A stretch of 64,000 nt of DNA, from the NCBI GenBank assembly GCA_947383005.1, contig CANDBT010000012.1:1-64000 (forward strand), given 5' to 3'. The DNA comes from an uncultured bacterium. Its GTDB lineage: Bacteria; Bacillota; Clostridia; Lachnospirales; Lachnospiraceae. Under the pieces are notes generated by a model that saw nothing but the letters and a program-made list of their open reading frames with translations, was not told where the DNA came from and did not search any database. Below, in pieces: positions 1,913 through 54,379 of this stretch. The translations under genes were made by a program, and so were the position numbers. Position 1 is the first letter of the stretch, and the number at the start of each line of letters is the position of its first letter.

Positions 1913-2306
1913 CTGTTGCTGTTCACACCATGGCTAATCAATTCGCTGATTAACTACAGGACAGGTAAATATAACTTAGCAGAATTTGCAAAGCAAATTA
2001 TGATAAAAGACGCGTTCTTAGCGCCGTAAATCCGATTACAGGGTTCGCGGAGCGGTTCCTGTAATATAACTTATCAGAATTTGCGAAGCAAATTATGATA
2101 AAAGGCGCGTTCTTAGCGCCGTAAATCCGATTACAGGGTTCGCGGAGCGGTTCCTGTAATATGGTTTATGGCAACAAAGTGTATGCCCCTGTCTACATTC
2201 CGTTCCGGTCGGTTCTAAACAAGCGCCGCTGGCGATTAGAAACCCGCAGGCAATTGCAAACGGGCATATGCGGTTACATTTACAGGGTGGCGGTGAACAG
2301 CAACAG
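1913..2306. repeat. Composite palindromic element with terminal inverted repeats (R1)
   Basis: The element is bounded by CTGTTGCTGTTCAC (1913-1926) and its exact complement (2293-2306). Inside are two tandem three-hairpin units (1970-2159) and a right half with modules also found at 6.9 and 30.8 kb, including GTTCTAAACAAGCGCC and GGGCATATGCGGTTAC. No clear target duplication flanks it (4/8 matches), so it may be a recombinant of two elements. It fills most of the 500-bp gap between the exporter start and the next possible gene. Confidence 0.75.
1970..2159. repeat. Two tandem three-hairpin units, 95-bp period
   Basis: Each unit has three hairpins: AATTTGC-GAA-GCAAATT (or a close variant) inside TTATCA...TGATAA, then GGCGC-GTTCTTA-GCGCC, then TACAGG...CCTGTA. 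Units start at about 1970 and 2065. The same unit is duplicated at 9341-9494, and degenerate forms occur near 44.7, 48.7 and 56.7 kb. Confidence 0.85.
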
Positions 2307-2388
2307 TGTATTATTGTCAATGAAATAACAGAGCCGTTAAAACACTAACAATGTTTTTTTATTATATATAGAGAAAACAAAAAAATCT

Positions 2389-2583
2389 ATGGAAATATTA
2401 ACTAAATTTGATGAAAAATCGACGATAAACGCAATATGTATGACGAAAGATAGTTATTTTTTTAACAAAAACATTCTAAATGAAATGAATTTTGAAACCG
2501 ATATAAAGAATTTTTACGCAAATTGGAGAAAATGCAAGGTATGCCATGAAAAGGCATCTGGTGTTGAAAAATTTTCTCAATAA
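2389..2583 (+). CDS. Doubtful small ORF upstream of feo operon
   Basis: A 64-codon open frame, AT-rich, encoding a polar protein with a C-terminal WRKCKVCHEKA stretch holding one CxxC pair. I do not recognise it. No convincing ribosome site precedes the ATG, and base composition differs from neighbouring genes. It could be a short orphan gene, a decayed gene or chance. Confidence 0.25.
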   Translation: MEILTKFDEKSTINAICMTKDSYFFNKNILNEMNFETDIKNFYANWRKCKVCHEKASGVEKFSQ

Positions 2584-2589
2584 GCATGA

Positions 2590-2618
2590 TTGACTTTTTT
2601 TATTTATTCACGTATACT
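2590..2618 (+). promoter_or_regulatory. Promoter of feo operon
   Basis: TTGACT (2590-2595) and TATACT (2613-2618) are separated by exactly 17 bp, a good vegetative-type promoter about 70 nt before the first feoA ribosome site. A Fur-box-like sequence lies just downstream. Confidence 0.75.
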
Positions 2619-2629
2619 TGTTACGAAAA

Positions 2630-2644
2630 TGATAATCAATTTCA
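2630..2644 (+). promoter_or_regulatory. Fur-box-like operator
   Basis: TGATAATCAATTTCA matches the 7-1-7 Fur consensus (TGATAATnATTATCA) at 12 of 14 defined positions. It sits 11 bp after the -10 hexamer, around the expected transcription start, so a bound iron-loaded repressor would block the feo promoter. The site is seen in sequence; the regulator is inferred. Confidence 0.7.
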
Positions 2645-2688
2645 AAACTAAAATAAATACGCATGCGAATGCAGAAAGGATATGGAAT

Positions 2689-2904
2689 ATGCCGTTATCA
2701 ATGGTGGAGCAAGGAGATATCAGGGAAATTACGGAATTTCGGGGGCAAGAGGAGATGAAACGACATCTGCAGGATTTGGGATTTATCAAAGGCGAGAAGG
2801 TTCGTGTTGTAGGAGAGAACCCCAGTGGCATGATCTTGCTGGTTAAGGGGGTGAAGATTGCCTTGAACCGGGCTTTGGCCAACAGGATTATGGTAGCGGA
2901 TTAA
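2689..2904 (+). CDS. feoA: FeoA-domain protein (first copy)
   Basis: A 71-residue SH3-like FeoA protein, a small cytoplasmic partner of the FeoB ferrous iron transporter. Core family features are visible: M(K/R)RHLQDLGFIKGEKVRVVGE, then GMILLVKGVKIALNRALA. The frame is open back to 2590, but that upstream part overlaps the promoter and Fur box, so the start is placed at 2689, where AGAAAGG lies 9 nt upstream. It is the first gene of feoA-feoA-feoB and probably derepressed when iron is low. Confidence 0.9.
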   Translation: MPLSMVEQGDIREITEFRGQEEMKRHLQDLGFIKGEKVRVVGENPSGMILLVKGVKIALNRALANRIMVAD

Positions 2905-2928
2905 GCGTATGTTAAGGGAGGATGAACG

Positions 2929-3147
2929 ATGACACTGAAAGATTTAAGACCAGGTCAGGAAGGAACGGTGCTTTCTGTCGCCGCTGTCGGTCCGATGAAA
3001 AGAAGGATTATGGATATGGGAATCACACCGGGGGTGGGAATTAAAGTAATTAAGGTGGCGCCATTAGGAGATCCGATAGAAATAAATGTGCGGGGGTATG
3101 AGTTGAGCCTTCGTAAGGAGGAAGCGCAGCAGATACAAATAGAATAA
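2929..3147 (+). CDS. feoA: FeoA-domain protein (second copy)
   Basis: A second FeoA protein of 72 residues, with MKRRIMDMGITPGVGIKVIKVAPLG followed by a C-terminal YELSLRKEEA stretch, typical of FeoA. GGGAGG precedes the ATG. It lies 24 nt after the first copy. Paired FeoA genes before FeoB are common in Clostridia; the two copies are divergent, so they probably have separate roles rather than being a recent duplication. Confidence 0.92.
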   Translation: MTLKDLRPGQEGTVLSVAAVGPMKRRIMDMGITPGVGIKVIKVAPLGDPIEINVRGYELSLRKEEAQQIQIE

Positions 3148-3185
3148 GGAATACTTGGTTATTTGGCTGTATTCCTTTCTTTTTT
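3148..3185 (+). terminator. Hairpin plus T-rich run between feoA and feoB
   Basis: GGAATAC and GTATTCC form a 7-bp stem around a 14-nt loop, followed by TTTCTTTTTT. This is an intrinsic-terminator shape right after the feoA stop. Because feoB follows on the same strand, it may act as an attenuator giving more feoA than feoB message. Confidence 0.6.
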
Positions 3186-3291
3186 GACATTAAGTTAGCA
3201 AGTGCTAATTCGGTTACGGAAAAGCAGAGGGGCAAACCCGACGGCCTGACAGAAATACGATAAAAATGACAGAAGCAAGAGGAGAAAAACG

Positions 3292-5340
3292 ATGAGTATA
3301 ACAATTGCGCTGGCAGGGAATCCAAATTGCGGCAAGACAACATTATTTAACGAATTGACTGGTTCCAAACAACATGTGGGGAACTGGCCAGGTGTTACGG
3401 TAGATAAAAAAGATGGCGTATATAAAAAGAACAGAGAAGTAACGATTTTAGACTTGCCAGGTATTTATTCTTTATCTCCTTATTCAGCAGAAGAGATTGT
3501 AGCCAGAGATTATTTGGTAAAAGATAAGCCGGATGCGGTAATCGATATTGTAGACGGAACCAGTATTGAGCGGAATTTGTATTTGTCTTTGCAAATTATG
3601 GAAACAGGAATTCCCATGGTTATTGCCTTGAATATGATGGATGAAGTGGAAACCAAAGGGGATAAGATTGACTGTCAAAAGCTTTCGGAAACGTTGGGCG
3701 TGCCGGTAGTGCCTGTAGTAGCCCGGAGCGGAAAAGGGCTGAAGGATTTGATGGATACGGCGATTGAGACGGCTCAGAGCCATAAGAAACCGGAGAAATT
3801 AAATCTTTTCGATCAGGATTTACAAAATGCCATTGCCGGGATTGCGGATGTATTGGGGGGTAATAATGAGGATGAGAGCCAGTGGAAGGCGATCAAGCTG
3901 ATAGAAAATGACGTGGTGGTGGAAAAGGCTGTAGATCCGGCAAAATTGGCAGCCATAAAAATTTTGGTGGAGAAAGCCAATAAAAACGCCAGGGGCGATG
4001 CGGAGGCGAAGATTGCCGATACCCGTTATCAGTACATAAGCCAACTGGTCAAAGAATGTGTAAAAAAGGCTCATCGGGGGCATGTGGAAACGAAGTCGGA
4101 TAAATTGGATAAAATCCTTACCAGCCGTATTTTGGCTCTGCCTATATTTGCCGTGGTCATGTATATTATGTTTGCCTGTACTTTCAGTGAAAATTTCCTT
4201 TTCATTGAAGGGCTGCCAAGCCCGGGCGTGTGGCTGGCCGGAATTGTGGAAACCATGTGGGGAATGATCGCGGAAGGCGTGGTTGGCGTAATAGAAGGCT
4301 TAGGAGCTTCTGAGTGGGCGGTCGGCCTGGTGGCAAGCTGCCTGGATGGTATTGGAGCCGTTGCCGGGTTCCTGCCCTTAGTACTGGTTCTGTTTTTGCT
4401 GCTGTCATTTCTGGAGGATAGCGGATATATGGCGCGTGTGGCTTTTGTCATGGACAGGATCTTCCGCCATTTTGGCTTGAGCGGACGTTCGTTTATCCCT
4501 ATGCTCATGGGTTTTGGCTGTTCTGTACCGGCACTGATGGCTTCCAGGACTTTGGAAAGCGATAAAGACAGGAAAATTACGATGATGATTACTCCGTTTA
4601 TGTCCTGTGGGGCGAAGCTGCCGATTTATGCTATGTTTGCAGCGACGCTGTTTGCGGAAGGAAATCAGACAATGATTGTCTTTTCCGTATATATGCTGGG
4701 GATTATTGTGGCGGTAATCGGCGCCTTGATTTTAAACAAATTCGCATTTAAAAGTGATGCATCCAGCTTTATTATGGAGCTGCCGCAGTACCGTGTTCCC
4801 ACGATAAAGAGTGTGCTGATCCATGCATGGGAGAAGGTAAAAGGATTTGCCGTTAAGGCAGGTACGGTGATTTTTGCTTCCACTGTGTTGATTTGGTTTT
4901 TATCTAACTTTAATTTTAGTGGCATGTGCGATATGGAAGAAAGCTTTTTGGCGACAATTGGTAACGGAATCAAATGGATTTTTGCTCCTTTAGGATGGGC
5001 TGATTGGCGCGCATCTGTGGGAGTTGTGACCGGATGGATTGCAAAGGAAAATATTGTAGCCACTTTCGGGCAACTGTTTGGCAATGTCAGTGAAGAAGTC
5101 GTCGAAGCGGTGATGGCAGGTGAGGAAGGTTTGCCGGCTATAGGCCAGGTATTTGATCAGGTTTCCGCGTATTCTTATATGGCGTTTAATTTGCTGTGCA
5201 TGCCTTGCTTCGCGGCGGTCGGAGCAATCAAGCGGGAGATGGGTTCATGGAAATGGACTTTGCGGGCGGTAGGATTCCAAATGGTGACGGCTTATGTAGT
5301 GGCATTATTGATTAATGTAATAGGGCATTTGATTTTTTAG
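3292..5340 (+). CDS. feoB: Ferrous iron transporter FeoB
   Basis: A 682-residue FeoB: an N-terminal G-protein domain with G1 motif GNPNCGKTT (residues 9-17), switch region GNWPGVTVD, G3 DLPG and G4 NMMD, then a helical spacer and a C-terminal membrane domain of about 8 or more helices from about residue 280. Gate-type motifs characteristic of FeoB are present (GFGCSVPALMASRT and SCGAKLPIYAMF). It imports Fe2+ across the inner membrane with GTP hydrolysis. It is the last gene of the feo operon. Confidence 0.97.
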   Translation: MSITIALAGNPNCGKTTLFNELTGSKQHVGNWPGVTVDKKDGVYKKNREVTILDLPGIYSLSPYSAEEIVARDYLVKDKPDAVIDIVDGTSIERNLYLSLQIMETGIPMVIALNMMDEVETKGDKIDCQKLSETLGVPVVPVVARSGKGLKDLMDTAIETAQSHKKPEKLNLFDQDLQNAIAGIADVLGGNNEDESQWKAIKLIENDVVVEKAVDPAKLAAIKILVEKANKNARGDAEAKIADTRYQYISQLVKECVKKAHRGHVETKSDKLDKILTSRILALPIFAVVMYIMFACTFSENFLFIEGLPSPGVWLAGIVETMWGMIAEGVVGVIEGLGASEWAVGLVASCLDGIGAVAGFLPLVLVLFLLLSFLEDSGYMARVAFVMDRIFRHFGLSGRSFIPMLMGFGCSVPALMASRTLESDKDRKITMMITPFMSCGAKLPIYAMFAATLFAEGNQTMIVFSVYMLGIIVAVIGALILNKFAFKSDASSFIMELPQYRVPTIKSVLIHAWEKVKGFAVKAGTVIFASTVLIWFLSNFNFSGMCDMEESFLATIGNGIKWIFAPLGWADWRASVGVVTGWIAKENIVATFGQLFGNVSEEVVEAVMAGEEGLPAIGQVFDQVSAYSYMAFNLLCMPCFAAVGAIKREMGSWKWTLRAVGFQMVTAYVVALLINVIGHLIF

Positions 5341-5410
5341 AAAACGGTAAAAGTGAATAATTTAGATTGCAGGAAACATTGAGAGAGGCGGTAAAAGGAG
5401 AATAACAGGG

Positions 5411-5680
5411 ATGTCAGTAGAGGCTCAGCAACGTTATATTATGGATGAATTAAGAAAAAACGGCTGCCGCATTACCAGCCAGAGGATGGTGCTAATTAAT
5501 ATTATTTTACAGGATGAGTGCAGTAGCTGCAAAGAGATTTATTACCGCGCCAATAAAGTGGATCCGACTATTGGAATGGCGACGGTATACCGATTGGTGA
5601 AAATTCTGGAAGATGCAGGGCTGATTCATCGGAAAAATATGTATCAGATCGATTATGAGGCTGCGGCCACCAGTGCATGA
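5411..5680 (+). CDS. Short Fur-family protein, DNA-binding domain only
   Basis: An 89-residue protein matching the N-terminal winged-helix domain of Fur/PerR regulators: RITSQRMVLINIIL, CSSCKEIYYRANK, and IGMATVYRLVKILEDAGLIHR. The frame stops right after the hinge, so the C-terminal dimerisation domain with the HHHH/CxxC metal ligands is absent (typical Fur is about 140-150 residues). The DNA after the TGA does not encode such a domain in another frame. It follows feoB by 70 bp and precedes a terminator, so it is probably part of the feo transcript. It may be a natural short form or a truncated gene. Confidence 0.8.
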   Translation: MSVEAQQRYIMDELRKNGCRITSQRMVLINIILQDECSSCKEIYYRANKVDPTIGMATVYRLVKILEDAGLIHRKNMYQIDYEAAATSA

Positions 5681-5713
5681 GGGAAAGTCTTGTATCATCA
5701 GCAGAGCGGGGTG

Positions 5714-5751
5714 GCTTTAGAGACAGAAAGGTTTCTAAAGCTGCTCTTTTT
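5714..5751 (+). terminator. Intrinsic terminator after Fur-like gene
   Basis: GCTTTAGA and TCTAAAGC form an 8-bp perfect stem with a 12-nt loop, extended by AGCAG/CTGCT-type pairing and followed by CTCTTTTTG. It probably ends the feo transcript. Confidence 0.8.
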
Positions 5752-5764
5752 GTGATGTATACCC

Positions 5765-6075
5765 CATTGCTGTAGACACTTGAAAATGGGCATATGCGGT
5801 TGCGCTCACAGATAACCATGGGTTACTGTCCAGATAGGTCTGCGCAGAGTCTGCCCCAGCGAAGCGAGGGTACTTGCTGCGCTGATCGTACGACGTCGTG
5901 CCCTTTGGGTATAACTTGGGCCGGCGAGCAAAAATCACTCTACACTCTTTTTCGGTTCGTCCTAAACAAGCGCCACTGGCGCTTAGGACCGCCGCAGGCG
6001 ATTTTCATGGATTTTTGCCAGTTGCTGCGAACGCACGTGAACAATAATAACCATGGATTGCGTGCATGAAGAAAA
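5765..6075. repeat. Mosaic of palindromic repeat modules
   Basis: No gene is supported in the 5681-6456 gap. This part is a patchwork of modules seen elsewhere in the window: GGGCATATGCGGTTGCG, GGTTACTGTCCAGATAGG (as in the jetC-jetD element), AAACAAGCGCCACTGGCGCTT (nested hairpin) and CGCCGCAGGCGATTTT. Ends and target duplications are not clear, so it may be an old or nested insertion. Confidence 0.65.
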
Positions 6076-6117
6076 TGGTGGACGGAATAAAAAAAATCGT
6101 ATATGATGATACCAGGG

Positions 6118-6168
6118 TCAAAAGGTCAAAAAATCCGATGCATGCTTGCAAGAGGATTTTTGAACTTA
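6118..6168. repeat. Short inverted repeat shared with 28.03-28.09 kb
   Basis: AAAAAATCCGATGC, GCTTGCAAGAGGATTTTT and GAACTT occur here and, in the opposite orientation, at about 28035-28085. The AAAATCC/GGATTTT arms can pair. Function unknown. Confidence 0.6.
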
Positions 6169-6234
6169 GGATCTGCAAAAACACCGAAAAGCAGCAGTCC
6201 TCAACATTATGTGATGCAGAAAGGTGATTTTTAC

Positions 6235-6386
6235 GTAACAGTTCAGACGGCGGGGAATTTAACATGAATTTTGGGCGTCAAGCTTGCTTGTAAGCCAAAA
6301 TTCATGTTAAATTCCCCATCGGATGGACATCCGATGCTTCTTGTCCGGTGTAGACGGGCAAGAAGATACCCGTCTGAACTGTTACA
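6235..6386. mobile_element. MITE-like element with 8-bp target duplication (R2)
   Basis: A 152-bp element with 16-bp perfect terminal inverted repeats GTAACAGTTCAGACGG (6235-6250) and CCGTCTGAACTGTTAC (6371-6386). It is flanked by the perfect 8-bp direct repeat ATTTTTAC (6227-6234 and 6387-6394), the mark of a transposition event. Inside is a second, larger palindrome with 21-bp perfect arms starting GGAATTTAACATG (6253-6316) and the module CATCGGATGGACATCCGATG. It encodes no protein. It lies about 70 bp before the DtxR-like gene, and one copy of its target duplication is close to that gene's putative -35. Confidence 0.88.
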
Positions 6387-6389
6387 TTT

Positions 6390-6420
6390 TTACAGCAGAT
6401 AACGGAGGACGGTTATAATC
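6390..6420 (+). promoter_or_regulatory. Possible promoter of DtxR-like gene
   Basis: TTTACA (6390-6395) and TATAAT (6415-6420) lie 19 bp apart, wider than ideal. The -35 overlaps the right target-duplication copy of the adjacent mobile element. Confidence 0.4.
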
Positions 6421-6456
6421 TTTGGCATGTGGGAGCAGCAATTAGCAGGAGGGTAT

Positions 6457-6840: not shown

Positions 6841-6844
6841 TTCC

Positions 6845-7037
6845 GTTACTGTTCACAGGTACCCTGTGAACGTAACCGCATGTGCCCATGTTAAATTGCC
6901 TTCGGGTTCTAAGCGCCAGTGGCGCTTGTTTAGAACCGACCGGAACGGAGTGTAGACGGGGGCATATGCTTTGCTCCTATAATGATATCTGTCCATGGCT
7001 AATCAGCGGAGTGATTAGCCATGGTGTGAACAGTAAC
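6845..7037. mobile_element. MITE-like element at regulator stop codon (R3)
   Basis: A 193-bp element with 12-bp perfect terminal inverted repeats GTTACTGTTCAC (6845-6856) and GTGAACAGTAAC (7026-7037). It is flanked by ATAGTTCC (6837-6844) and ATAGCTCC (7038-7045), an 8-bp target duplication with one mismatch. Its interior has nested hairpins (AAGCGCCAGTGGCGCTT inside GGTTCTAA...TTAGAACC; GGTACCCTGTGAAC near the left end). A nearly identical copy in reverse orientation is at 30741-30933. Confidence 0.88.
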
Positions 7038-7048
7038 ATAGCTCCCGC

Positions 7049-7077: not shown

Positions 7078-7169
7078 AGATTTCCAGACGATAATAAAGA
7101 TATTCTGATCAGGACGGCTGGTGCAACGCCAAAAGTTGCATGAATGTTTAGAAAAGAAGGTAAATGATA

Positions 7170-8357
7170 ATGACTAAGATTGATATTATTTCCGGGTTTC
7201 TTGGAGCAGGTAAGACTACATTTATCAAAAAGCTTTTGGAAGAGGCAATTGCCGGAGAGCAAGTAGTGCTGATTGAGAATGAATTTGGTGAGATTGGCAT
7301 TGACGGCGGGTTTCTAAAAGAATCCGGCATTGAAATCCGGGAGATGAACTCAGGATGTATTTGTTGTTCTTTGGTCGGAGATTTCGGCCAGTCTTTGGAG
7401 GAGGTGCTGACGAAGTACCAGCCCGACCGAGTGATTATTGAGCCTTCAGGTGTGGGAAAGCTGTCGGATGTAATGAATGCGGTGCGCAACGTTGCCAAAA
7501 ATCTGGAGGTAAAGCTTAATAGTGCAGTGACGGTGGTTGATGCCAATAAGTGCCGGATGTATATGAAAAATTTTGGTGAATTTTTTAACAATCAGGTAGA
7601 AAACGCAGGTACCGTTGTGCTGAGCCGCACGGATGTCACTGAGCCGAGGAAGGTGCAGGCAGCGGTAGATTTGCTGAGAGAACATAATGGGGCAGCGACG
7701 ATTGTGACTACGCCGATAAGCCAACTGAACGGAGGGCAGCTTTTGGAGCTGATCGAAAAGCCTGATACGATGATGGAGGAACTGCTGGCGCAGGCTAAAG
7801 AAGAATACGAGCGTCACCATCATCATGAAGGCTGCGGATGCGGCTGTCATGAACATGGCCATGAGGATCATGACCATGAAGGTCATGCCCACGGCCATAG
7901 TCATGAGGGTCATGAAGATCATGCTCACGGCCATGGTCATGAGGGCCATGAAGATCATGCTCACGGCCATGGTCATGAGGGCCATGAAGATCATGTTCAC
8001 GGCCATGGTGAGGAGGGCCATGAAGGCCATACTCACAGTCTCGATCATGAAGGCCACGATCATCATCACCATCATGCAGATGAGATATTTAGCAGTTGGG
8101 GGATAGAAACGATTGTACCTTGCAGCCGGGAAAAACTCAAGGAAATTTTGGAAGAGTTGGCTTATGGCAATCATTATGGAGATGTGCTTCGGGCGAAAGG
8201 AATGCTGCCTGGGGAAGAAGACGGACAGTGGTATTATTTTGACTTAGTACCGGAGGAGTATGAAATCCGTACAGGAGCTCCGGATTATGCAGGCCGGGTA
8301 TGTGTAATCGGCGCTCGTTTAAATGAGAAAGAGCTTAATCAGGCATTTGGAAAATAA
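7170..8357 (+). CDS. COG0523/CobW-family GTPase, His-rich metal chaperone
   Basis: A 395-residue G3E GTPase of the CobW/COG0523 family, which delivers or inserts metals (zinc, cobalt). Walker A GFLGAGKTT is at residues 9-17, followed by ENEFGEIGID and the signature metal-binding GCICC (about 63-66). The Walker B region is IIEPSGVG. A very His-rich segment with tandem repeats spans about residues 216-305, including a GCGCGCH cluster. The CobW C-terminal domain follows (ETIVPCSREKLKEIL to the end). The ATG at 7170 is preferred (AAGAAGG at 9 nt) over 7164 (3 nt). It is followed 32 bp later by a second, divergent family member. The His-rich insert suggests metal storage or buffering; zinc or nickel are both possible. 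Confidence 0.93.
   Translation: MTKIDIISGFLGAGKTTFIKKLLEEAIAGEQVVLIENEFGEIGIDGGFLKESGIEIREMNSGCICCSLVGDFGQSLEEVLTKYQPDRVIIEPSGVGKLSDVMNAVRNVAKNLEVKLNSAVTVVDANKCRMYMKNFGEFFNNQVENAGTVVLSRTDVTEPRKVQAAVDLLREHNGAATIVTTPISQLNGGQLLELIEKPDTMMEELLAQAKEEYERHHHHEGCGCGCHEHGHEDHDHEGHAHGHSHEGHEDHAHGHGHEGHEDHAHGHGHEGHEDHVHGHGEEGHEGHTHSLDHEGHDHHHHHADEIFSSWGIETIVPCSREKLKEILEELAYGNHYGDVLRAKGMLPGEEDGQWYYFDLVPEEYEIRTGAPDYAGRVCVIGARLNEKELNQAFGK
7902..8009 (+). repeat. Three 36-bp tandem repeats in His-rich region
   Basis: Three near-identical 36-bp copies (starting 7902, 7938, 7974) encode 12-residue HEGHEDHAHGHG units. More degenerate His-rich units surround them. The array is likely to vary in copy number between strains by slippage. 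Confidence 0.9.
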
Positions 8358-8389: not shown

Positions 8390-9340
8390 ATGGGACCGCA
8401 GATTGATGATGAGATTATGCCGGTATTCCTGATTAATGGATTTTTGGAAGCAGGAAAAACTGAATTTTTGTCTTTTACTATGGAACAGGAGTATTTTCAG
8501 ACAGACGGGAAAACTTTGTTGATTGTTTGTGAAGAGGGAGAGACGGAATTCGATTCAGAGCTTTTGGCTGATACACGGACCTCGGTAGTCTATGTGGAGG
8601 AATTGGAGCAGATATCTCCGGAACGATTGACGGAGTTGGAGCTTTTGTACAATCCGGAAAGAGTGTTGATTGAATGGAATGGCATGTGGGATCAGAAAGA
8701 GCTTAAACTGCCTTCTGACTGGATGATTTATCAACAAATAACCATAATTGATATGTCTACCTTTGAGGTTTATGCAAAAAATATGAAATCGCTTTTGTCT
8801 GCGATGGTACAAGGCTCAGAGTTGATTATCGGAAACCGCTGTGATGGGATTGAAGATTTGGAGCGATATAAGCGGATGCTGAAGTCTATGAATACAAAAT
8901 GCGATATTGTATTTGAGGATGAAAACGGGGAAATTGATGAATTGTCAGAAGAAGACCTTCCTTATGATTTAAATGCGGCGGTAATTGAAATACGCCCCGA
9001 AGCGTATGGAATATGGTACATTGATTGCATGGATAAGCCTCAGCGCTATGTGGGGAAAACGGTGGAATTTACTGCCATGGTGTTAAAATCTCCAAACTTT
9101 CCTAAAAATTATTTTGTGCCAGGCCGAATGGCGATGACCTGCTGTGCGGATGATATGACCTTTTTGGGCTATATCTGTAAAGCCAGGGAAGCGCGCAGGC
9201 TGGAAACCGGCCAATGGGTGAAGGTTCAGGCCAAGATTGCTCTGGAATACTGGCAGGACTATCAAGGCGAGGGACCTGTACTTTATGCGGAAAATATAGC
9301 CCTGGCCCAGCCGATTGAAGAGGTGGTTCAGTTTGGATAA
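8390..9340 (+). CDS. Degenerate COG0523-like GTPase fused to DUF1980/TIGR03943-like domain
   Basis: A 316-residue two-part protein. The N-terminal half resembles CobW GTPases (PVFLINGFLEAGKTEFL P-loop at about residues 10-26, later RVLIEWNGMW in the Walker B position), but the GCxCC metal-binding motif is missing. The C-terminal half, from about residue 200, has the pattern of the C-terminal domain of YcgQ/TIGR03943 proteins (GKTVEFTAMV, FPKNYFVPGRMAMTCCADDMTFLGY, GQWVKVQAKI). In other bacteria that domain belongs to a protein encoded beside COG0523 GTPases and YcgR-type permeases. It follows the His-rich GTPase and is probably co-transcribed. A role in metal handling is inferred. Three-hairpin repeats begin immediately after its stop. 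Confidence 0.8.
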   Translation: MGPQIDDEIMPVFLINGFLEAGKTEFLSFTMEQEYFQTDGKTLLIVCEEGETEFDSELLADTRTSVVYVEELEQISPERLTELELLYNPERVLIEWNGMWDQKELKLPSDWMIYQQITIIDMSTFEVYAKNMKSLLSAMVQGSELIIGNRCDGIEDLERYKRMLKSMNTKCDIVFEDENGEIDELSEEDLPYDLNAAVIEIRPEAYGIWYIDCMDKPQRYVGKTVEFTAMVLKSPNFPKNYFVPGRMAMTCCADDMTFLGYICKAREARRLETGQWVKVQAKIALEYWQDYQGEGPVLYAENIALAQPIEEVVQFG

Positions 9341-9494
9341 TATAACTTATCAGAATTTGCGAAGCAAATTTTGATAAAAGGCGCGTTCTTAGCGCCGTAA
9401 ATCGATTACAGGGTTCGCGGAGCGGTTCCTGTAATATAACTTATCAGAATTTGCGAAGCAAATTTTGATAAAAGGCGCGTTCTTAGCGCCGTAT
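9341..9494. repeat. Tandem three-hairpin units, 94-bp period
   Basis: Starts on the base after the stop codon of the preceding gene. The first full unit (9341-9434) and a second, partial unit (from 9435) carry the TTATCA...TGATAA palindrome with the GCGAAGC mini-hairpin, the GGCGC/GCGCC hairpin and the TTACAGG/CCTGTAA hairpin. Same family as 1970-2159. Confidence 0.85.
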
Positions 9495-9553
9495 ACGGAA
9501 GTTTGCTGTTGCAGAATACAGAGGGAGATAATCGGGTAGAGGTAAATTTCCCC

Positions 9554-11480: not shown

Positions 11481-11780
11481 GTTTGCGGTTATTGTTCATT
11501 CCCATGTCAAGCACCACGCTGCTTGGCATGGGGGATGCACGTAATGGCAGCGAACCAGGCCGCCCATCGCCGCAGGCGATTTTAAATGGCGGCCTGAGTT
11601 GCTGTTCGCTGGGTACCAGTGAACAGTAACGTTTGCGGTTATTGTTCATTCCCATGTCAAGCACCACGCTGCTTGGCATGGGGGATGCACGTAATGGCAG
11701 CGAACCAGGCCGCCCATCGCCGCAGGCGATTTTAAATGGCGGCCTGAGTTGCTGTTCGCTGGGTACCAGTGAACAGCAAC
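11481..11780. mobile_element. Tandem pair of 150-bp MITE-like elements (R5)
   Basis: Two copies, 11481-11630 and 11631-11780, are almost identical (one visible difference, CAGTAAC versus CAGCAAC). Each has a left end GTTATTGTTCAT and a right end GTGAACAGYAAC. GTTTGCGG occurs three times, at 11481, 11631 and 11781, before, between and after them, as expected for a 7-8 bp target duplication amplified with the element. The interior holds CGCCGCAGGCG inside GGCCGCCCAT...ATGGCGGCC. The pair separates the dynamin-like GTPase gene from the rest of its cluster. Confidence 0.85.
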
Positions 11781-11786
11781 GTTTGC

Positions 11787-11816
11787 GGTAATGGTTCAGA
11801 CGGTCTGACCAGTTAT
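11787..11816. repeat. Minimal element: two fused repeat ends
   Basis: GGTAATGGTTCAGACGG runs directly into TCTGACCAGTTAT, like the two ends of the R2-type element joined without an interior. It lies between the tandem pair and the GTPase stop codon. Confidence 0.5.
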
Positions 11817-28235: not shown

Positions 28236-28321
28236 TGGCTTATACTGGTATCATATCATATTTTTAACAAAGTGCAAACAGCAGTATCTCAATATGTTTT
28301 GACCCCATAGCTATAGTGTTA

Positions 28322-28366
28322 CTGTTCACAGATACCCTGTGAACGTAACCGCATATGCCCATTAGA
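28322..28366. repeat. Solo left end of R3-type element
   Basis: GTTACTGTTCACAGATACCC, TGTGAACGTAACCGCATATG match the left 45 bp of the element at 6845. The rest is absent, so this is a truncated copy upstream of the EIIB-ROK gene. Confidence 0.7.
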
Positions 28367-28481
28367 AATCGCCCCGTGAAACGTAATCTATATCCTTATA
28401 TGACTGTTTGGCGGAGAGCAATATTTGGATATGAGCAGTAATCACTAAGATTACCATAAAAGAAAGGAAAATCGTGCACAG

Positions 28482-30002: not shown

Positions 30003-30758
30003 ATGGCTAATAAGGTTTATGCGATATCTGACCTTCACGGCCATTACGAGATTTTTTTGGCTATGCTGAAAAAAATTCATTTTGACAGTAGCGACCGGCT
30101 GTATATTTTGGGGGATTGCAATGACAGGGGCGAGAAAGCCATGGAGATTTATCATTTTATCCGGCAGAATCCGGATAACATCATTTTGCTGAAGGGTAAT
30201 CATGAGCTGATGATGCGGGATTTTTTGCTGAAAAATGACAGGGAATGTCTTTGCGGAAGTCTCTGGCAGTCTGACGGCGGGGCAAAAACCATGGAAAATA
30301 TGGAACGTTTCTTGCGGGAAGGGTGTGAAAACGAACGGGATTTCTGTGATAAAAGGAAAAGCTTCCAGCGCTGGCTGATTGACTATGTGGATTCTTTGCC
30401 GGCGTGCCTGGAAATCAATGTGGGCGGGCAGAGCGTGGTGCTGGTCCACGGAGGAGTAAATCCGGAAGTCCCCCTTGATAAGCAGGACGAGGAACTCTGT
30501 ACCTGGCTGCGGGACTGGTTTTATCTGGCGCCGGGCATAAAAGGGAAAACGGTTGTTTTCGGGCATACCCCGCTGTGCTATGTCAACAGCGACCGGTCGT
30601 TTGATGTGTGGTTTGATCCGGTTCATGAGGATAAAATCGGTATCGACGGCGGTGTCGGTTTTTTTGACGACGGCCAGCTTAACTGCCTTTGCCTTAATGA
30701 TATGTCGGTGACGGTAATTCATAAAAAACATAACGGGACAGATTGTTGTTCACGTTAG
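30003..30758 (+). CDS. PP1-like Ser/Thr protein phosphatase / metallophosphoesterase
   Basis: A 251-residue calcineurin-type metallophosphoesterase. Metal-binding motifs are complete: DLHGH (GDxHG position), GDCNDRG, GNHE, VHGG and FGHTP. It hydrolyses phosphate esters, possibly phosphoproteins or diadenosine polyphosphate. The ATG at 30003 (GGTGGGGAAG upstream) is preferred to the GTG at 29991. The last residues (DCCSR) and stop codon are supplied by the repeat element that begins at about 30741. Confidence 0.87.
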   Translation: MANKVYAISDLHGHYEIFLAMLKKIHFDSSDRLYILGDCNDRGEKAMEIYHFIRQNPDNIILLKGNHELMMRDFLLKNDRECLCGSLWQSDGGAKTMENMERFLREGCENERDFCDKRKSFQRWLIDYVDSLPACLEINVGGQSVVLVHGGVNPEVPLDKQDEELCTWLRDWFYLAPGIKGKTVVFGHTPLCYVNSDRSFDVWFDPVHEDKIGIDGGVGFFDDGQLNCLCLNDMSVTVIHKKHNGTDCCSR

Positions 30759-30933
30759 GATTAATCACTCCGCTGATTAGCCATGGGCAGATATCATTAT
30801 GGGGTAAAGCATATGCCCCCGTCTACACTCCGTTCCGGTCGGTTCTAAACAAGCGCCACTGGCGCTTAGAACCCGAAGGCAATTTAACATGGGCATATGC
30901 GGTTACGTTCACAGGGTACCTGTGAACAGTAAC
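30741..30933. mobile_element. R3-type element, reverse orientation (R4)
   Basis: Nearly identical to the reverse complement of 6845-7037, including the nested AAGCGCCACTGGCGCTT hairpin and the GTGAACAGTAAC end (30922-30933). The left end is degenerate (GATTGTTGTTCAC) and no target duplication is clear. It overlaps the 3' end of the phosphatase gene and lies upstream of galE. Confidence 0.82.
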
Positions 30934-32799: not shown

Positions 32800-32919
32800 G
32801 TCACTGTTCATGCCGTGGCTGTCACTTTGCTGGTCAGCTATGGGCTAATAGATTTTGGAGTCAAAATATATGTTCCATTGCGCAGGCAATTGAAAATGGG
32901 CAAACCGGCAAACAGTAAC
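32800..32919. repeat. Degenerate MITE-like element before DUF5717 gene
   Basis: GTCACTGTTCAT at the left and GGCAAACAGTAAC at the right are diverged forms of the terminal repeats, 120 bp apart. The interior contains TTGCGCAGGCAATTGAAAAT modules. No clear target duplication; an old copy. Confidence 0.55.
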
Positions 32920-32983
32920 AGGACAAATTGCTATTCAGAGACAAACCCATAAGCGGTAACGAGAAATGTAAACAGGTGGTACT

Positions 32984-38633: not shown

Positions 38634-38687
38634 ATAACCGTTCAGACGGTGCAGACGGTCAGGAAAGATATCCGTCTGACCGGTTAC
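38634..38687. repeat. Minimal MITE-like element
   Basis: ATAACCGTTCAGACGG and CCGTCTGACCGGTTAC form imperfect 16-bp terminal repeats only 54 bp apart. The flanks AATTGGTC and AATTAACC match at 5 of 8 positions. It begins 7 bp after the TPR gene. Confidence 0.65.
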
Positions 38688-43020: not shown

Positions 43021-43183
43021 ATGTGCTCTCGGAGTCTCTCTGTGCCTAATTTTGTGAGATGATTTTTTGTCAGATGAGCATAAATTGATGAGGCGTACGT
43101 GGAACGTATGTTGATTGAATTTAGGTGCATATGACAGAAAATCAGCCACAAAGGCAGGTGCAGGAGAGATTCCGAGAGTACAT
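43021..43183. repeat. 163-bp long imperfect hairpin between folC and small ORF
   Basis: ATGTGCTCTCGGAGTCTCTC (43021-43040) pairs with GAGAGATTCCGAGAGTACAT (43164-43183) with two mismatches. Inside, TTTTGTG/CACAAAG, TGATTTTTTGTCA/TGACAGAAAATCA (12 of 13), GCATAAATT/AATTTAGGTGC and CGTACGT/ACGTATG continue the stem, so nearly the whole 163 bp can fold into one rod. It encodes no protein and ends 8 bp before the ribosome site of the next small gene. Confidence 0.75.
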
Positions 43184-43203
43184 GAAAAATATAAGGAGGG
43201 CAC

Positions 43204-44660: not shown

Positions 44661-44689
44661 TTATAGGAAGCAAAATCAGCTTCCTATAA
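44661..44689. terminator. Hairpin after TPR gene
   Basis: TTATAGGAAGC-AAAATCA-GCTTCCTATAA, an 11-bp perfect stem 2 bp after the stop, without a T run. It could stabilise the 3' end or terminate weakly. Confidence 0.5.
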
Positions 44690-44691
44690 TC

Positions 44692-44735
44692 GGATTTACG
44701 GCACGAAAAGCATGTGCCTTTTATCATCGATCAAG
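44692..44735. repeat. Diverged three-hairpin module, reverse orientation
   Basis: CGGATTTACGGCAC...GTGCCTTTTATCATCG is a diverged reverse copy of the TGATAAAAGGCGC...GCGCCGTAAATCCG module. Confidence 0.6.
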
Positions 44736-45332: not shown

Positions 45333-45474
45333 GGGTGAACCTTATGTTTCAGCGAAAGCTGAAGCCCCTGCTGTGAAGCAGCGTGAATTAAGGGGTACCC
45401 GAAGGGTATACCTTATGCTTCAGCGAAAGCTGAAGCCCCCTGCTGTGAAGCAGCGTGAGTTAAGGGAGATAGGG
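45333..45474. repeat. Two tandem 71-bp GNRA-hairpin units between spoIIAA and spoIIAB
   Basis: Two copies (hairpins at 45348-45363 and 45419-45434) of TTCAGC-GAAA-GCTGAA, each followed by CTGCT-GTGA-AGCAG, GTGARTTAAGGG and GGGTAYCCC-type pairing. A third copy is at 46671-46750. The units lengthen the spoIIAA-spoIIAB gap to 200 bp, where these genes normally overlap or abut. Confidence 0.85.
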
Positions 45475-46670: not shown

Positions 46671-46750
46671 ACTATACCATATGGTTCAGCGAAAGCTGAA
46701 CCGCCCCGCTGCGAAGCAGCATGAGTTAAGGGGTGCCCGAGGGGTATAGG
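46671..46750. repeat. Third GNRA-hairpin unit between sigF and spoVA genes
   Basis: GTTCAGC-GAAA-GCTGAAC (46683-46700), then GCTGC-GAA-GCAGC, enclosed by ACTATACC at 46671 and GGTATAG at the right, so the whole unit closes as a three-way structure. Same family as 45333-45474. Confidence 0.82.
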
Positions 46751-48526: not shown

Positions 48527-48557
48527 TTAGCGGATAGGAATGGTAATTCGTTTTATG

Positions 48558-48599: not shown

Positions 48600-48714
48600 T
48601 GTCCGGGGATACGGAAGGATTGCCAATAGAGCCTTTGCTTTATTCTAAGTTTTCGCATTGCATGAAGAAATAGAATGACGAATGGAGCATTATGGGTTAT
48701 AATAAAGCTTATCC

Positions 48715-48806
48715 GGAATTGCGCAGTAATTTTGAATAAAAGGTGCGCATTTTGCGCCGTAAATCAATTATAGCAAGCTTTTTTTGCTTCCGATAATTGA
48801 TTTACA
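48715..48806. repeat. Diverged three-hairpin repeat before jetA
   Basis: TTTTGAATAAAAGGTGCGCATTTTGCGCC followed by GTAAATCAATTATAGC and GATAATTGATTTAC; the last two arms form a 14-bp stem around GCAAG-CTTTTTTT-GCTT. A relative of the 94-95 bp units; it may also act as a terminator. Confidence 0.6.
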
Positions 48807-50293: not shown

Positions 50294-50951
50294 TATCAGT
50301 TTGCAGCTTACAATCAAAGAAGAAAGCGGTCATTTGTTTAAGCGGTGCATCCGGAAGCTTCTGGAGGCTACCTTTATTTTGCGGGATCGGGATGAAAAGC
50401 TGTTTGCATTTATATCCCGGGAATCAAACCGGCAGGATATTTCCGAATATCTGCGGATGATCGGGTTTGATATTCTGGTGGATGAAAAGATCGGTGTGGG
50501 GATGCTGATTGCCAGCGAGGAGGACTCGGAGACTGTGGGATTAAAGCGTGCCAATGTGGTTACCTTTACAACGCTTCAGTACCATTTGCTGCTGGCACTT
50601 TGGAAAGTATATTTGGAAGGTCTGGGTTACAATGAGGGGAATTTTGTTACCAAAGGAGATTTGATTGACAAGATCAAGTCCTACGGACTGATGCCGGTGC
50701 GCACGGAGCTGAACGCTGCGTTTAAGCTTTTTAAGAAGTACAGTCTCATCAATTATGCTGAGGATGAGGACGGGGAGGATATGAAAATCAAGCTCTATCC
50801 ATCTCTACAGTTTGGCTGGGATCTGCCCCAGTTTCAGACGGTTGCGCGGGAGTATTTAAAGGAAGACGCCGAGGCGGTTCCGGAAACGGAAACAAGGCAG
50901 GAGTCGGACATTGCTGAGAATTTGGCGGAGTTTGAGGAGGAAGAATTATGA
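50286..50951 (+). CDS. jetB: Wadjet system protein JetB (DUF4194)
   Basis: A 221-residue KITE-type winged-helix subunit (DUF4194). HLFKRCIRKLLEATFILRD, FTTLQYHLLLALWKVYLEG and a C-terminal winged helix (KGDLIDKIKSYGLMPVRTELNAAFKLFKKYSLI) are visible, with an acidic tail. It bridges the kleisin and the SMC-like subunit. Overlaps jetA and jetC (ATGA). Confidence 0.92.
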   Translation: MSDISLQLTIKEESGHLFKRCIRKLLEATFILRDRDEKLFAFISRESNRQDISEYLRMIGFDILVDEKIGVGMLIASEEDSETVGLKRANVVTFTTLQYHLLLALWKVYLEGLGYNEGNFVTKGDLIDKIKSYGLMPVRTELNAAFKLFKKYSLINYAEDEDGEDMKIKLYPSLQFGWDLPQFQTVAREYLKEDAEAVPETETRQESDIAENLAEFEEEEL

Positions 50952-53900
50952 TTTTGCTGAAAAAGCTCCGATTGATCAACTGGTATGGCTTTGCCAATGA
51001 AACAGCCCCCATCGGCTTTTTTACCTTGATTGCCGGAAAGAATGGAAACGGAAAATCGGTCATGCTGGATGCCATCAAATACGCGGCTTATGGTGATACG
51101 GTGTTCAATAAATCCTCGGAAAGTAAGGGAAGCCGGACGCTTTCCTCATACACCCGGGGACTTCTTGATGCCACGGCGGGGACTTATATGCGCCCGGCAG
51201 GTAAGGTGCCTAATGTATACAGTCATATTGTGCTGGAATTTTATGACAAGGCGGAGGAGAAATCCTTTATCCTTGGGACAGCGATCGAGACTAATGCGGC
51301 CAATAACTGCCAGTCCTACCGTTATGTGATGGACCGGAAAAGTCTGGAGGAGGTGGAGCATGTCTGTGTGGAAAATGGGATCGTCAGGCCCTATACGGCT
51401 TCACAGCTGCAGAAACGGTATCGGCTGACTCTTTTGAACCGGGAACAAGGGCTTCCCCGGTTTATGCAGATGACGGGCCTGAAGCTGACCATCGACCAGC
51501 TTCCCACCTATTTGAGAAAGCTGCGGGGAATCATGTCCTATGACCCCAATGCGAAAATTGACCGTTTTATTAGGGAAAGTGTTCTGGAAGAAAAGAATGT
51601 GGACTTTTCCAAACTGATTGAGGCAAGGGAAAACATTGAACGGTTAAACGGTATGTTTTCCAATATTCAGAATGAGATTGGAGAGCTGGAGGAAATTCTT
51701 GCGGAGTATGACGACTGCGAAAGTGAGAAAAATCGTCTTTTGACGGATGACATTAAAATCAGTTATAAGAAGATCAAGGGGTTCAACGGGGAAATCGAGA
51801 GGCTGACCCGGGAGCAGGTGCTGGCAAGGCAGAAAAAGGAAGAGACAGACCAGGTGCTGGCGGTGCTAAATGACCGCATGGGAAGCCTGGATGACCGGCT
51901 GATGGATGCGAGAGTCAGCCTGAATCAACTGGACAGTGCCAAAATGATCGAGGAGGAGAAACGGCGTCTGGCAGATCTGGAAGGGAAGAAAAAGGAACTG
52001 GCATTACAATGCAGGGAACTGGAGGATTTCCAGATAAAAATCAGTGAGATTCTTCATGATTTTTTGAAGGAGGGCGGCGAATCAGTCGGGGATAAAGAGG
52101 TTCTGGCTTCTCTGTGCAACAGCGGGTATCCGGCGGCGGAGAAGCGCCATGCAGTTGAGGAATTGAAAAAGCTTGTGGATGCAGCCCATGAGAAACAAAT
52201 CGGGGTCCTTGTCCGCCTGGACCAGGGGCTGGGAGAGCTTGGCAGAAAGCTGAACGCACAACTGGCAATTGTGGAAGAGTGTAAAAAGCATAGGAATGCC
52301 TACGGACAGATTCCCGAATATGTGGGACTGCGGGATGAAATCAACAAGGAATTTGCAAAACGGGGTATTCCGGAAAAGGCGCAGTTCGCCTGTGAATATG
52401 TGATCGGGATTTCTGATGAGAGCTGGCGGGATGCCATTGAGGCGTTTTTGGGCCCACGGCGCTACAGTATTCTGGTAGAACCACAATATTACGATATTGC
52501 GGATGATGTGCTGAACCGTTCCCAGTATAAGTACGCCCATCTGTTCAATACAAAGCTGCTGATGCGAAAAGAGATGAAACCGGAGAAGGATTCGGTGGTA
52601 CATATGCTGGAGATCAAAAATCCCGTGGCAAAGAAATATTTTGATTTCCAATTGGGACGTATGCATGGGGTGAAGCTGAATGAGGTCCGGAATTTCGAGA
52701 ATGCCATTTCCAGAGAGGGGCGTGTGTCTGTGGCCATGGACAGCTTTTTCCTGCGGTTTGAGAAAATCAGGGCTTACTACCTGGGGCAGAAGACCTTTGA
52801 GCTTAACCGGAACCGGGCCGAAAAAGAGATGCAGCTCCTGAATGAAGAAAAGAAGCAGTACCTGGAAGAAAAGAAAAAGGCAGAGGGACGGAAAAACCAG
52901 CTGAAAATGAACCGGGAGGCATTTAAGGAATACCAGTATGATGTACACCGGCAGTATCAGGAGACGGTAGCGGCGGCAAAAGAGTCAGAAACTCAACTGA
53001 AACGGTTGGAGAAGGCCCAGCAGAATAACCGGGAGTATCTGGAACTGAGCCAGACGGTGGCGAGGCTCCAGTCAGAGAAGGAGGCCGTAAAGAAGGAGCA
53101 GGAGAAAAAGCTTCAGGAAAGCAGCGATCTGGAAACCACGATCCAGGTCTGCGAAAAGGACATTGACCAAAAGGCGGCAGGGCTTAAGAGCGAGGAGGCT
53201 GTCTTTGGGGAGTTTGAGATTACGGCCTATTCTGTAGTACAGAAAGCGGTGGAGACCTATGAGAAGTATCTGGAGAATGGGAAAAATGGTTCCGGCGGAC
53301 TTCTTGCGACCGAGACAAGAGGGCGTATCCAGCGAAGCATTGAGCAGCATAGAAAAGCACTTTTTGGACTGCAGGCGGCCTATAACGCAAAGCACGCGGA
53401 CTTGGAACTTCCCACCAGCGAGGAGGGCCGGGAAATCTTCGCGGCCAGGAAAGACCGCATCTGGATGGATAATCTGCAGGAGGTGCGCAAGAAGCTGGAG
53501 GAGCAGACAAGACGGTATGAGGATATTTTCAAAAACGAATTTGTGCTGACAATTCTGAAGTATTGCAGAAAGGCGCGGGAAGATTTAAAACAGATGAATT
53601 CAGAGCTTTCCCGGCTGAATTTCTCTGCCAGGTACGAGTTTGATGTCCACTATGTAAAGGACAGCTCCGAATATGCCAGAATCATTGAGTTTGCGGAATA
53701 TTTGGATGAGCGGGAAAAGCTGGGCACCGCGGACGGACAGATGACCTTTGGGATGTTTACCTCGGTTACTGATGAGGCGGGAGAGGAGCTGGAAAAGGAT
53801 TTAAAACAGATTATTAACCGGATTATTGAAAAAAATAGCGAAGAAACTATCGCCCGGTTTGCCGATTACCGGAATTATATGACCTATGAAATTTTAATCA

Positions 53901-54280
53901 GCAACCAGATTTTAGACCGGGCGAAGCTTTCCCGGCAGACCGGCTTCAATTCCGGAGCGGAAGTACAGATTCCCTATCTTCTGATCCTGTCATCGGCGCT
54001 TTTGATGATTTATAATCAGAGGGTTAATTCTACACGCCTTGTTTTTATTGATGAGCCCTTTGCCAAGATGGATCCGGGAAATGTAAAGCTGATGCTGGAT
54101 TTCATGAAGAAACAGAACATGCAGGTGATTTTCTGTTCGCCGGACAAGACGGAATCCATCGGAAATGAATGTGAGGTCATTCTTCCGGTGCTGCGTGTGC
54201 GGGCGGACAGTATGCTGCTTGGAATTGTGCAGTTCCATAAGGAGAACAGTTCAGATAGGTCTGCGCGTTCACCGCGCTGA
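50948..54280 (+). CDS. jetC: Wadjet SMC-like ATPase JetC, C-terminus altered by element
   Basis: A 1110-residue SMC/MukB-like motor. Walker A AGKNGNGKS at residues 29-37, two long coiled-coil arms (about 220-430 and 600-800) around a hinge-like globular region, and Walker B RLVFIDEPFAKMD (D1035, E1036) followed by a D-loop and switch His-equivalent region. It hydrolyses ATP to extrude DNA. The last twelve residues (ENSSDRSARSPR) and stop come from a mobile element inserted at 54243; removing it would give the ending EKANESV and a 14-nt overlap with jetD. Whether the altered tail harms function is unknown. Confidence 0.95.
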   Translation: MILLKKLRLINWYGFANETAPIGFFTLIAGKNGNGKSVMLDAIKYAAYGDTVFNKSSESKGSRTLSSYTRGLLDATAGTYMRPAGKVPNVYSHIVLEFYDKAEEKSFILGTAIETNAANNCQSYRYVMDRKSLEEVEHVCVENGIVRPYTASQLQKRYRLTLLNREQGLPRFMQMTGLKLTIDQLPTYLRKLRGIMSYDPNAKIDRFIRESVLEEKNVDFSKLIEARENIERLNGMFSNIQNEIGELEEILAEYDDCESEKNRLLTDDIKISYKKIKGFNGEIERLTREQVLARQKKEETDQVLAVLNDRMGSLDDRLMDARVSLNQLDSAKMIEEEKRRLADLEGKKKELALQCRELEDFQIKISEILHDFLKEGGESVGDKEVLASLCNSGYPAAEKRHAVEELKKLVDAAHEKQIGVLVRLDQGLGELGRKLNAQLAIVEECKKHRNAYGQIPEYVGLRDEINKEFAKRGIPEKAQFACEYVIGISDESWRDAIEAFLGPRRYSILVEPQYYDIADDVLNRSQYKYAHLFNTKLLMRKEMKPEKDSVVHMLEIKNPVAKKYFDFQLGRMHGVKLNEVRNFENAISREGRVSVAMDSFFLRFEKIRAYYLGQKTFELNRNRAEKEMQLLNEEKKQYLEEKKKAEGRKNQLKMNREAFKEYQYDVHRQYQETVAAAKESETQLKRLEKAQQNNREYLELSQTVARLQSEKEAVKKEQEKKLQESSDLETTIQVCEKDIDQKAAGLKSEEAVFGEFEITAYSVVQKAVETYEKYLENGKNGSGGLLATETRGRIQRSIEQHRKALFGLQAAYNAKHADLELPTSEEGREIFAARKDRIWMDNLQEVRKKLEEQTRRYEDIFKNEFVLTILKYCRKAREDLKQMNSELSRLNFSARYEFDVHYVKDSSEYARIIEFAEYLDEREKLGTADGQMTFGMFTSVTDEAGEELEKDLKQIINRIIEKNSEETIARFADYRNYMTYEILISNQILDRAKLSRQTGFNSGAEVQIPYLLILSSALLMIYNQRVNSTRLVFIDEPFAKMDPGNVKLMLDFMKKQNMQVIFCSPDKTESIGNECEVILPVLRVRADSMLLGIVQFHKENSSDRSARSPR

Positions 54281-54379
54281 CCGTACGAAAACGTAGCGGT
54301 CGCGGGCATACGGCCCATCGCCTCGGCGATTCTAAATGGCCGTATGCCGTAACAGTTCAAGGGGTATCTGAACTGTTAC
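54243..54379. mobile_element. MITE-like element between jetC and jetD (R8), perfect 8-bp duplication
   Basis: A 137-bp element. The right end TATCTGAACTGTTAC (54365-54379) is complementary to the left end AGAACAGTTCAGATA (54243-54257) except for two terminal bases. CCATAAGG occurs on both sides (54235-54242 and 54380-54387), a perfect 8-bp target duplication. Interior: GGTCTGCGCG, CGTACG...CGTAGCG and GGCATACGGCCCAT with ATGGCCGTATGCC around the hairpin ATCGCC-TC-GGCGAT. The duplication preserves the AAGGAG ribosome site of jetD. Confidence 0.93.

Follow-up and report, generated by a model that had tools for sequence, protein, structure and literature searches.

Does a set of short palindromic repeats without genes, scattered over one stretch of a Lachnospiraceae genome, form a family of mobile elements, and if so, which enzyme moved them? 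The stretch examined here (i.e., the window) comprises 64,000 nucleotides, positions 1 to 64,000 of contig C12 of genome G000, a 4.99-Mb draft assembly of 136 contigs. A first-pass annotation of the window had called the repeats MITE-like and had guessed that an IS66-type transposase acts on them in trans. The label is right, since these are short gene-less elements with inverted ends and 8-bp duplications. The ends and the 8-bp duplications are common to the MITEs and to single-gene insertion sequences (IS) of the IS66 type; therefore, the elements in the window most likely spread by means of a borrowed IS66-type transposase.

Copies, duplications, and spread of the elements

The coordinates of the first-pass annotation proved accurate to within a few bases, and the duplications that it had described as perfect at 6.2 and 54.2 kb and as 7/8 at 6.8 kb were recovered as such (Table 1). 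All of the bounded copies that it listed are present; two degenerate bounded copies (those of 227 and 161 bp) had been missed. The pair with a duplication that it placed at 11.5 kb does exist and was resolved as two tandem copies. At this site, the left terminal G is common to the end and to the target sequence, and a solo GTAATGGTTCAGACGG end starts at 11788. The 137-bp element is intergenic (the upstream ORF terminates within it, at 54280), and its duplicated target sits just upstream of the next ATG, at 54397. The search of the window against Rfam at gathering scores returned 0 matches.

Table 1. Elements, solo ends, and terminal palindrome located in the 64-kb window
Feature	Position	Strand	Ends and flanking duplication
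193-bp type element, interrupted by two 95-bp repeats	1915..2304	-	Both ends GTTGC, one mismatch each; no target duplication
227-bp degenerate element	5822..6048		Duplication AACCATGG/AACCATGG, 8/8; ends with 1 and 2 mismatches
151-bp element	6235..6385		Ends GTAACAGTTCAGACGG; duplication ATTTTTAC, 8/8
193-bp element	6845..7037	+	Ends GTTACTGTTCACA; duplication ATAGTTCC/ATAGCTCC, 7/8
Two tandem 143-bp elements (11488-11630, 11638-11780)	11481..11788		GTTTGCGG three times
Solo end, truncated 193-bp type terminus	28318..28373	+	
193-bp type element, left end truncated	30747..30933	-	No duplication
161-bp degenerate element	32800..32960		AAGAAATG/GAGAAATG, 7/8; ends with 1 and 2 mismatches
Degenerate facing end pair, 54 bp	38634..38687		One mismatch per end; duplication only 5/8
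137-bp element	54243..54379		Duplication CCATAAGG, 8/8; left end with 2 mismatches to motif
31-bp terminal imperfect palindrome of the 137-bp element	54349..54379	-	

Other repeats were also observed. A 95-bp repeat (AATATAACTTATCAGAATTTGCG...) occurs at window positions 1966-2160, 9337-9510, 44683-44727, 48699-48773, and 56736-56774, as a tandem pair at two of these places and in pieces elsewhere, and it is this repeat that interrupts the 193-bp type MITE at 2 kb. Three copies of a hairpin repeat (TTCAGCGAAAGCTGAA...GCTGTGAAGCAGC) lie at 45335-45466 and 46673-46732, and 36-bp repeats (7847-8062) lie within the ORF at 7164-8357, in what appears by eye to be a His-rich coding stretch. Elsewhere in G000, TAGTACTRCMTTGCGGAAAT is common to the contig ends of C120, C128, and C132 (L048, L052, and L037), where it probably marks another collapsed insertion sequence.

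The genome-wide search for the ends that the first-pass annotation had proposed revealed a clear enrichment: motif GTTNCNGTTCA occurs 268 times, compared with 22 occurrences of the reversed motif (i.e., a ~12-fold excess), and motif GTAACNGTTCA occurs 212 times, compared with 11 (~19-fold). Target duplications were scored in the window together with 40 stretches (851,446 bases in total; the 851-kb set), in which densities are biased upward because the stretches were picked for containing end hits. Facing end pairs, with at most one mismatch to the motif in each end, carried duplications of at least 7/8 in 57 of the 113 cases with a spacing of 22 to 450 bp (40 perfect) and in none of the 115 cases with a spacing of 451 to 4,000 bp (best, 5/8). 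For comparison, chance alone gave 7/8 or better in 164 of 200,000 pairs of positions drawn at random from the window. The sequences duplicated perfectly (40 cases) are rich in AT and follow no strict consensus. BLAST detected 44 matches to the window's 193-bp element (6845-7037) in its own genome, and 23 of the 30 matches fetched have flanking 8-bp repeats of at least 7/8 (24 with one edge shifted by 1 base). End pairs 1.6 to 2.2 kb (L094 and L097) and 3.5 kb (L249) apart were dismissed as chance or recombined pairs; they are without duplications and enclose ordinary-looking ORFs, including one for an AMP-binding enzyme in L249. A 3.5-kb end pair similar to that of L249 was seen in L250.

Clustering of the 57 elements gave groups of 20 (GTAAC ends, 68 to 154 bp; this cluster includes the element at 6235-6385), 20 (GTTAC ends, 192 to 195 bp), 5 (138 to 144 bp), 5 (31 bp), 2 (158 bp), 2 (143 bp), 2 (28 and 209 bp), and 1 (44 bp). 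The first-pass annotation had described the interiors as drawn from a common stock of hairpin modules, and comparison of the 144-, 193-, and 209/227-bp elements bears this out: the 144- and 193-bp elements have the same backbone, to which the longer one adds a ~50-bp hairpin block, and the same hairpin recurs in the otherwise different 209/227-bp backbone.

The joined flanks of 56 of the 57 elements (the remaining one lies too near a stretch end) were searched against all of the sequence gathered, and two elements were found to have insert-free sites elsewhere. The 143-bp copy in L065 interrupts a dispersed ~165-bp repeat, of which eight uninterrupted copies were aligned; TAAATTTG is present twice in L065 and once in the closest uninterrupted copy (L067). 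In L085, a 144-bp element is nested in an element of the 151-bp type, with CATCCGAT duplicated; here the match is weaker (73 to 76%). The remaining junction-spanning matches either hit the query locus itself or, in the case of L075 (31-bp unit) against L092 and L029, were taken to reflect similarity between elements. Together with the clusters of 20, 20, 5, and 5 members, the one paralogous empty site indicates that the elements moved as units. The ~165-bp repeat that hosts the empty-site comparison is itself a second palindromic family (window positions 43021-43184) whose inverted ends resemble ATGTACTCTCGGARTCTCTC; it was seen at 11 loci of the 851-kb set, some of them partial, and it has no Rfam match in the window at the gathering score.

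Similar elements occur in relatives of the window's bacterium. Using the probe GTWACTGTTCA and counting a genome as enriched when it had 10 or more hits and these were at least threefold the reversed control, we found enrichment in 14 of 98 relatives: 6 of the 23 from the genus, 8 of the 37 from other genera of the family, and none of the 38 from other families of the order. All 14 are in the same family according to the tool's assignment. Genomes G048 and G025 each have MITE families of their own; the interiors differ, and the ends are of the same kind and come with 8-bp duplications.

IS66 elements with matching ends

A PF03050 search of the window's own genome and of the MITE-rich relatives identified 12 IS66 loci. 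The ends were checked in nine of these loci, and only two (L320 and L325) had matching ones. L325, from a genome of the same genus as the window (G022), is an IS66-family element of 1,812 bp with one 494-aa ORF (PF03050, 5.8e-18); both of its ends are GTAACAGTTCAGCC, its duplication is AATTTTTT (8/8), and its first 12 bases are identical to those of the window's 151-bp element. The L325 protein scores 136.7 on the NCBI IS66 model, below the curated cut-off of 180, and the L320 protein (from G012; 30% identical to that of L325) scores 271.3, above the cut-off. L320 is flanked by GTAACTGTTCAG and GTAACTATTCAG, with no matching duplication. On a viral contig, L353 has GTAACTATTCAG on both sides and an 8/8 duplication, CTATGGCA, and its best segment is 89% identical to L320; it was the one relative found when viral contigs were scanned with the L320 protein, while scans of these contigs with a two-row TnpC alignment and with the L325 protein found none. 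Phage records yielded one weak partial match.

Two Geobacillus plasmid elements labeled ISGst1 and ISGka4 have GTAACTATTCAG-type ends and 8/8 duplications. The label ISGka4 is used here only as in the plasmid record; an excerpt of PMC8024623 applies the name to an ISLre2 element and gives an IS66/ISBst12 copy on pHTA426 as a separate entry. For ISDge4, a one-ORF member of the ISBst12 group of IS66, an excerpt of PMC12898284 reports transposition, the ends GTGACTACTCAGCA/GTAACTGCTCAGCA, and the 8-bp repeat CCTCGATG. Judged from their one ORF and their ends, ISGst1 and ISGka4 would fall into the ISBst12 group, and so would the Lachnospiraceae-type IS66 elements, on the basis of one-ORF structure and ends and not of a tree.

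The sequence GTWACNGTTCA is matched at 11 of 11 positions by the window's 151- and 193-bp elements, both ends of L325, the left end of L320, and two stubs in G049, and at 9 to 10 of 11 by the right end of L320, L353, ISGst1, and ISGka4. The stubs came to light when a two-row TnpC profile was searched in 16 MITE-bearing genomes. G049, which belongs to another genus, has 15 matches, all of them C-terminal stubs at contig ends, and 15/15 run into GTAACTGTTCAG; this would be the picture of a high-copy IS66 collapsed in assembly. Strong matches were obtained in G012, G022, and G037, weak ones only (4e-4 to 1e-3) in the window's own genome, G026, and G048, and none in the other nine genomes. IS66 elements with the same ends and duplication are present in the genus and in the family of the window's bacterium. 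Not one of the IS66 copies seen has ends of the GTTAC type instead of the GTAAC type. The 8-bp length of the duplication agrees between the MITEs (57 of 113 close pairs) and IS66 (8/8 in four of six near-complete copies with such ends; absent in L320 and L328).

These data uphold the IS66 part of the first-pass guess (same-end IS66 elements with 8-bp duplications, i.e., L325, ISGst1, ISGka4, and ISDge4, together with the G049 ends) and change its gene content, which is a single ORF and not the tnpABC set expected. The full IS with matching ends that was also expected did not turn up in the window's own assembly, either with the TnpC profile, which gave just a weak match to C49 (9.4e-4), or among the assembly's own PF03050 loci, C42 and C49, which have no GT-starting end pair with a duplication. 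An autonomous copy with these ends was thus not found in G000, and the 136-contig draft may lack such a copy.

The elements are also short, palindromic, and dispersed, as are REP/REPIN sequences, which would implicate a RAYT (Y1) transposase. This is extremely improbable given the clear 8-bp duplications and the ends common with a DDE-type IS; moreover, neither GTAG nor CGTC, the tags given in the title of PMC3733652, stands at the start of the ends in the window. With duplications present, the window-type elements fall outside REP/REPIN.

As a whole, the observations are very probably best explained by MITEs whose GTWACNGTTCA ends are those of single-ORF IS66 elements (ISBst12-type) and whose mobilization is of the TnpC type. 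The parts common to all of the MITEs would be only these ~11-bp ends. The IS66 enzyme would recognize the outer ~11 bp and cut at GTWAC, and the ends would be joined to a staggered AT-rich target, giving the 8-bp duplication. The MITEs would be served in trans, and we infer that such movement took place, including in the past in the window's genome. Since the searches of the window's own assembly turned up no IS66 of this kind, a helper in the host is likewise what we infer; the TnpC-type transposase may have come from an IS66 formerly in the cell or from an element since lost or unassembled, and the helper would now be absent from the host because it was lost or is missing in the assembly. 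Such a helper would be an IS66 TnpC flanked by ends of the form GTTACTGTTCAC or GTAACAGTTCAG. The interiors would have become diverse through hairpin blocks and short deletions, and IS4-family elements would later have colonized the ends. This suggests that ~11 bp of common end may suffice for mobilization, and it connects a little-studied group of transposases with the large burden of short palindromes that a gut-type bacterium and its relatives carry (480 end motifs in 5 Mb).

IS4-family elements at the ends of the MITEs

The first candidate considered as the parent was an IS4-family element with the terminal inverted repeat CAATGTCATTWAGTTAA, of which the full ends would read GTWACWGTTCA-N4-CAATGTC and the MITEs would be derivatives. 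In G012, of the same genus, a 1,821-bp element with GTTACTGTTCA ends encodes an IS4-family transposase (PF01609, 2.8e-19; NF033592, 1.6e-42). The window's own genome has an IS4-family transposase between such compound ends, with a 7/8 8-bp duplication outside (C34:93-1829; 46% identity to the G012 element over the best piece, with the frame in pieces), and in L241 an IS4 between compound ends has an outer 8-bp duplication of 8/8. A pattern scan of genome contigs found the compound end in at least 119 stretches (about 75 of them from Lachnospiraceae among the matches listed, by hand count), and 9 of 14 two-ended compound elements have an outer 8-bp duplication of at least 7/8.

This candidate was overturned by the IS4 elements' own duplications of 9 to 12 bp and by their insertions into GTWAC ends. 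Across 51 IS4 rows, the conserved end is CAATGTCATTWAGTTAA, and in 24 of these rows (a few rows represent the same copy twice) a 9- to 12-bp duplication lies directly at CAATGTC. Similarly, in 24 of 146 compound junctions the IS4 sequence has simply inserted into a GTWAC end and duplicated the 9- to 10-bp target GTTCANNNN(N); the other junctions comprise 87 without a partner end within 2.6 kb, 28 that are two-ended (14 elements, both sides), and 7 others. The MITEs in the window have no CAATGTC core at their ends and have duplications of 8 bp rather than 9 to 12 bp, and PF01609 has no match in the MITE-rich genomes G048 and G049. The two-ended form could itself have arisen by recombination between IS4 copies as in L187, with the outer 8-bp duplication kept; L187 (111-559), a MITE both of whose ends hold a short IS4 derivative, is a likely intermediate on the way to the two-ended compound elements. 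Descent of the MITEs from an IS4-family parent is accordingly very unlikely.

Because the insertions into GTWAC ends carry duplications of their own, MITE ends serve as a landing site for the IS4 elements. The IS4-family element is therefore a second parasite, with a fixed insertion spot, GTWACN^GTTCANNNN, in MITE ends and a 9- to 10-bp duplication, so that a two-layer system is formed in which IS4-family elements land on the ends of IS66-type MITEs. Short IS4 derivatives insert in these GTWACN^GTTCANNNN ends in the same way as full IS4 elements (24 junctions and L293). Other IS4 copies, in G085 and G039, are inserted in terminator-like hairpins (by eye) and have 10- to 12-bp duplications. Among 20 DDE_Tnp_1 loci in seven genomes, no convincing facing pair was found besides the C34 copy and a nested 296-bp element in G008.

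Tiny units and comparison with known systems

Stand-alone units of 28 to 68 bp with duplications of at least 7/8 in the window's own genome comprise one of 28 bp, six of 31 bp, one of 33 bp, two of 44 bp, one of 64 bp, and one of 68 bp, and G025 has one of 35 bp. Among the facing pairs 22 to 70 bp apart in the 851-kb set, only 8 of 26 have duplications of at least 7/8. Of the other 18 pairs, some are terminal palindromes of longer elements, in which the lack of a duplication is expected, five reach 6/8, and others are simply without one (e.g., L059:2249-2292). C6:126232-126262 also has no duplication. These terminal palindromes consist of one MITE end with a second, inverted end motif, giving an imperfect palindrome of 31 to 34 bp (three own backbones and a G025 element). 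Their ungapped self-complementarity is 22/31, 26/33, 18/32, and 14/34, the last two needing a gap by eye. In sequence, the 31-bp and 33-bp units are similar to the palindromes found in the 137- and 143-bp elements.

The copies of 28 to 35 bp are probably immobile scars, left where the interior of a MITE was deleted between short direct repeats and the 8-bp duplication was kept. Every small unit can be written as such a deletion of a full-size parent. By eye, joining 15 nt from the left end of the 193-bp element to 13 nt from its right end at ACC reproduces the 28-bp copy; the 31- and 33-bp copies could be derived from the 137- and 143-bp elements by a deletion from the outer to the inner end motif, and the 44-bp copies are consistent with loss of the sequence between CCGTCT repeats in the 151-bp element. 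The "nearly precise excision" of Tn10 is a precedent for such scars. Against this reading, the 31-bp unit stands alone at 6 sites (duplications of at least 7/8), compared with 5 longer elements ending in that palindrome in the 851-kb set (one of which, L080, has diverged neighbor sequence), and it also occurs once in another species (L233). A less favored possibility is that the units of 28 to 35 bp are the smallest DDE-mobilized elements, on which the IS66 transposase would act directly, cutting and inserting them in this form. The terminal palindrome would then be a pair of outward-facing IS66 ends and form a complete minimal element within one end of a larger element. The choice between scars and mobile units makes the minimum length of a DDE-transposed element a testable question.

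Very small mobile-looking repeats of a few tens of bp were reportedly described in cyanobacteria by Elhai et al. in 2008. The tiny units described here have 8-bp duplications and known IS ends, in which they would differ from those repeats. The titles and abstract starts of the literature searched contained no description of IS66-served MITEs, which is not proof of absence. According to an excerpt of PMC3189936, MITEPsy1 is 100 nt long, with 18-nt repeats, a 4-nt duplication, and ISPsy2 as the presumed helper. Like MITEPsy1 as described there, the MITEs in the window are short and non-coding and have the terminal repeats of a presumed mobilizing IS; unlike it, they have ~11-bp ends, an 8-bp duplication, and several different interiors. 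The second parasite resembles the IS4 subgroup of the IS4 family, with ends of the form -AATR... and repeats of 10 to 13 bp (excerpt of PMC2266710) in the YREK motif of P0001 (by eye), its -AATR... end, its duplications of about one helix turn, and its target specificity, and it differs from the subgroup so described in having MITE ends as the target and 9-bp duplications just below the listed 10 to 13 bp. Finally, the IS66 elements of the ISBst12 group (ISDge4, ISGst1, and ISGka4) are like the window elements in having ends close to GTAACTGTTCAG and 8-bp duplications, whereas the latter are short, carry no transposase, and have only the outermost ~11 bp in common with them. The window elements are a real and very abundant further example of an already known element type.
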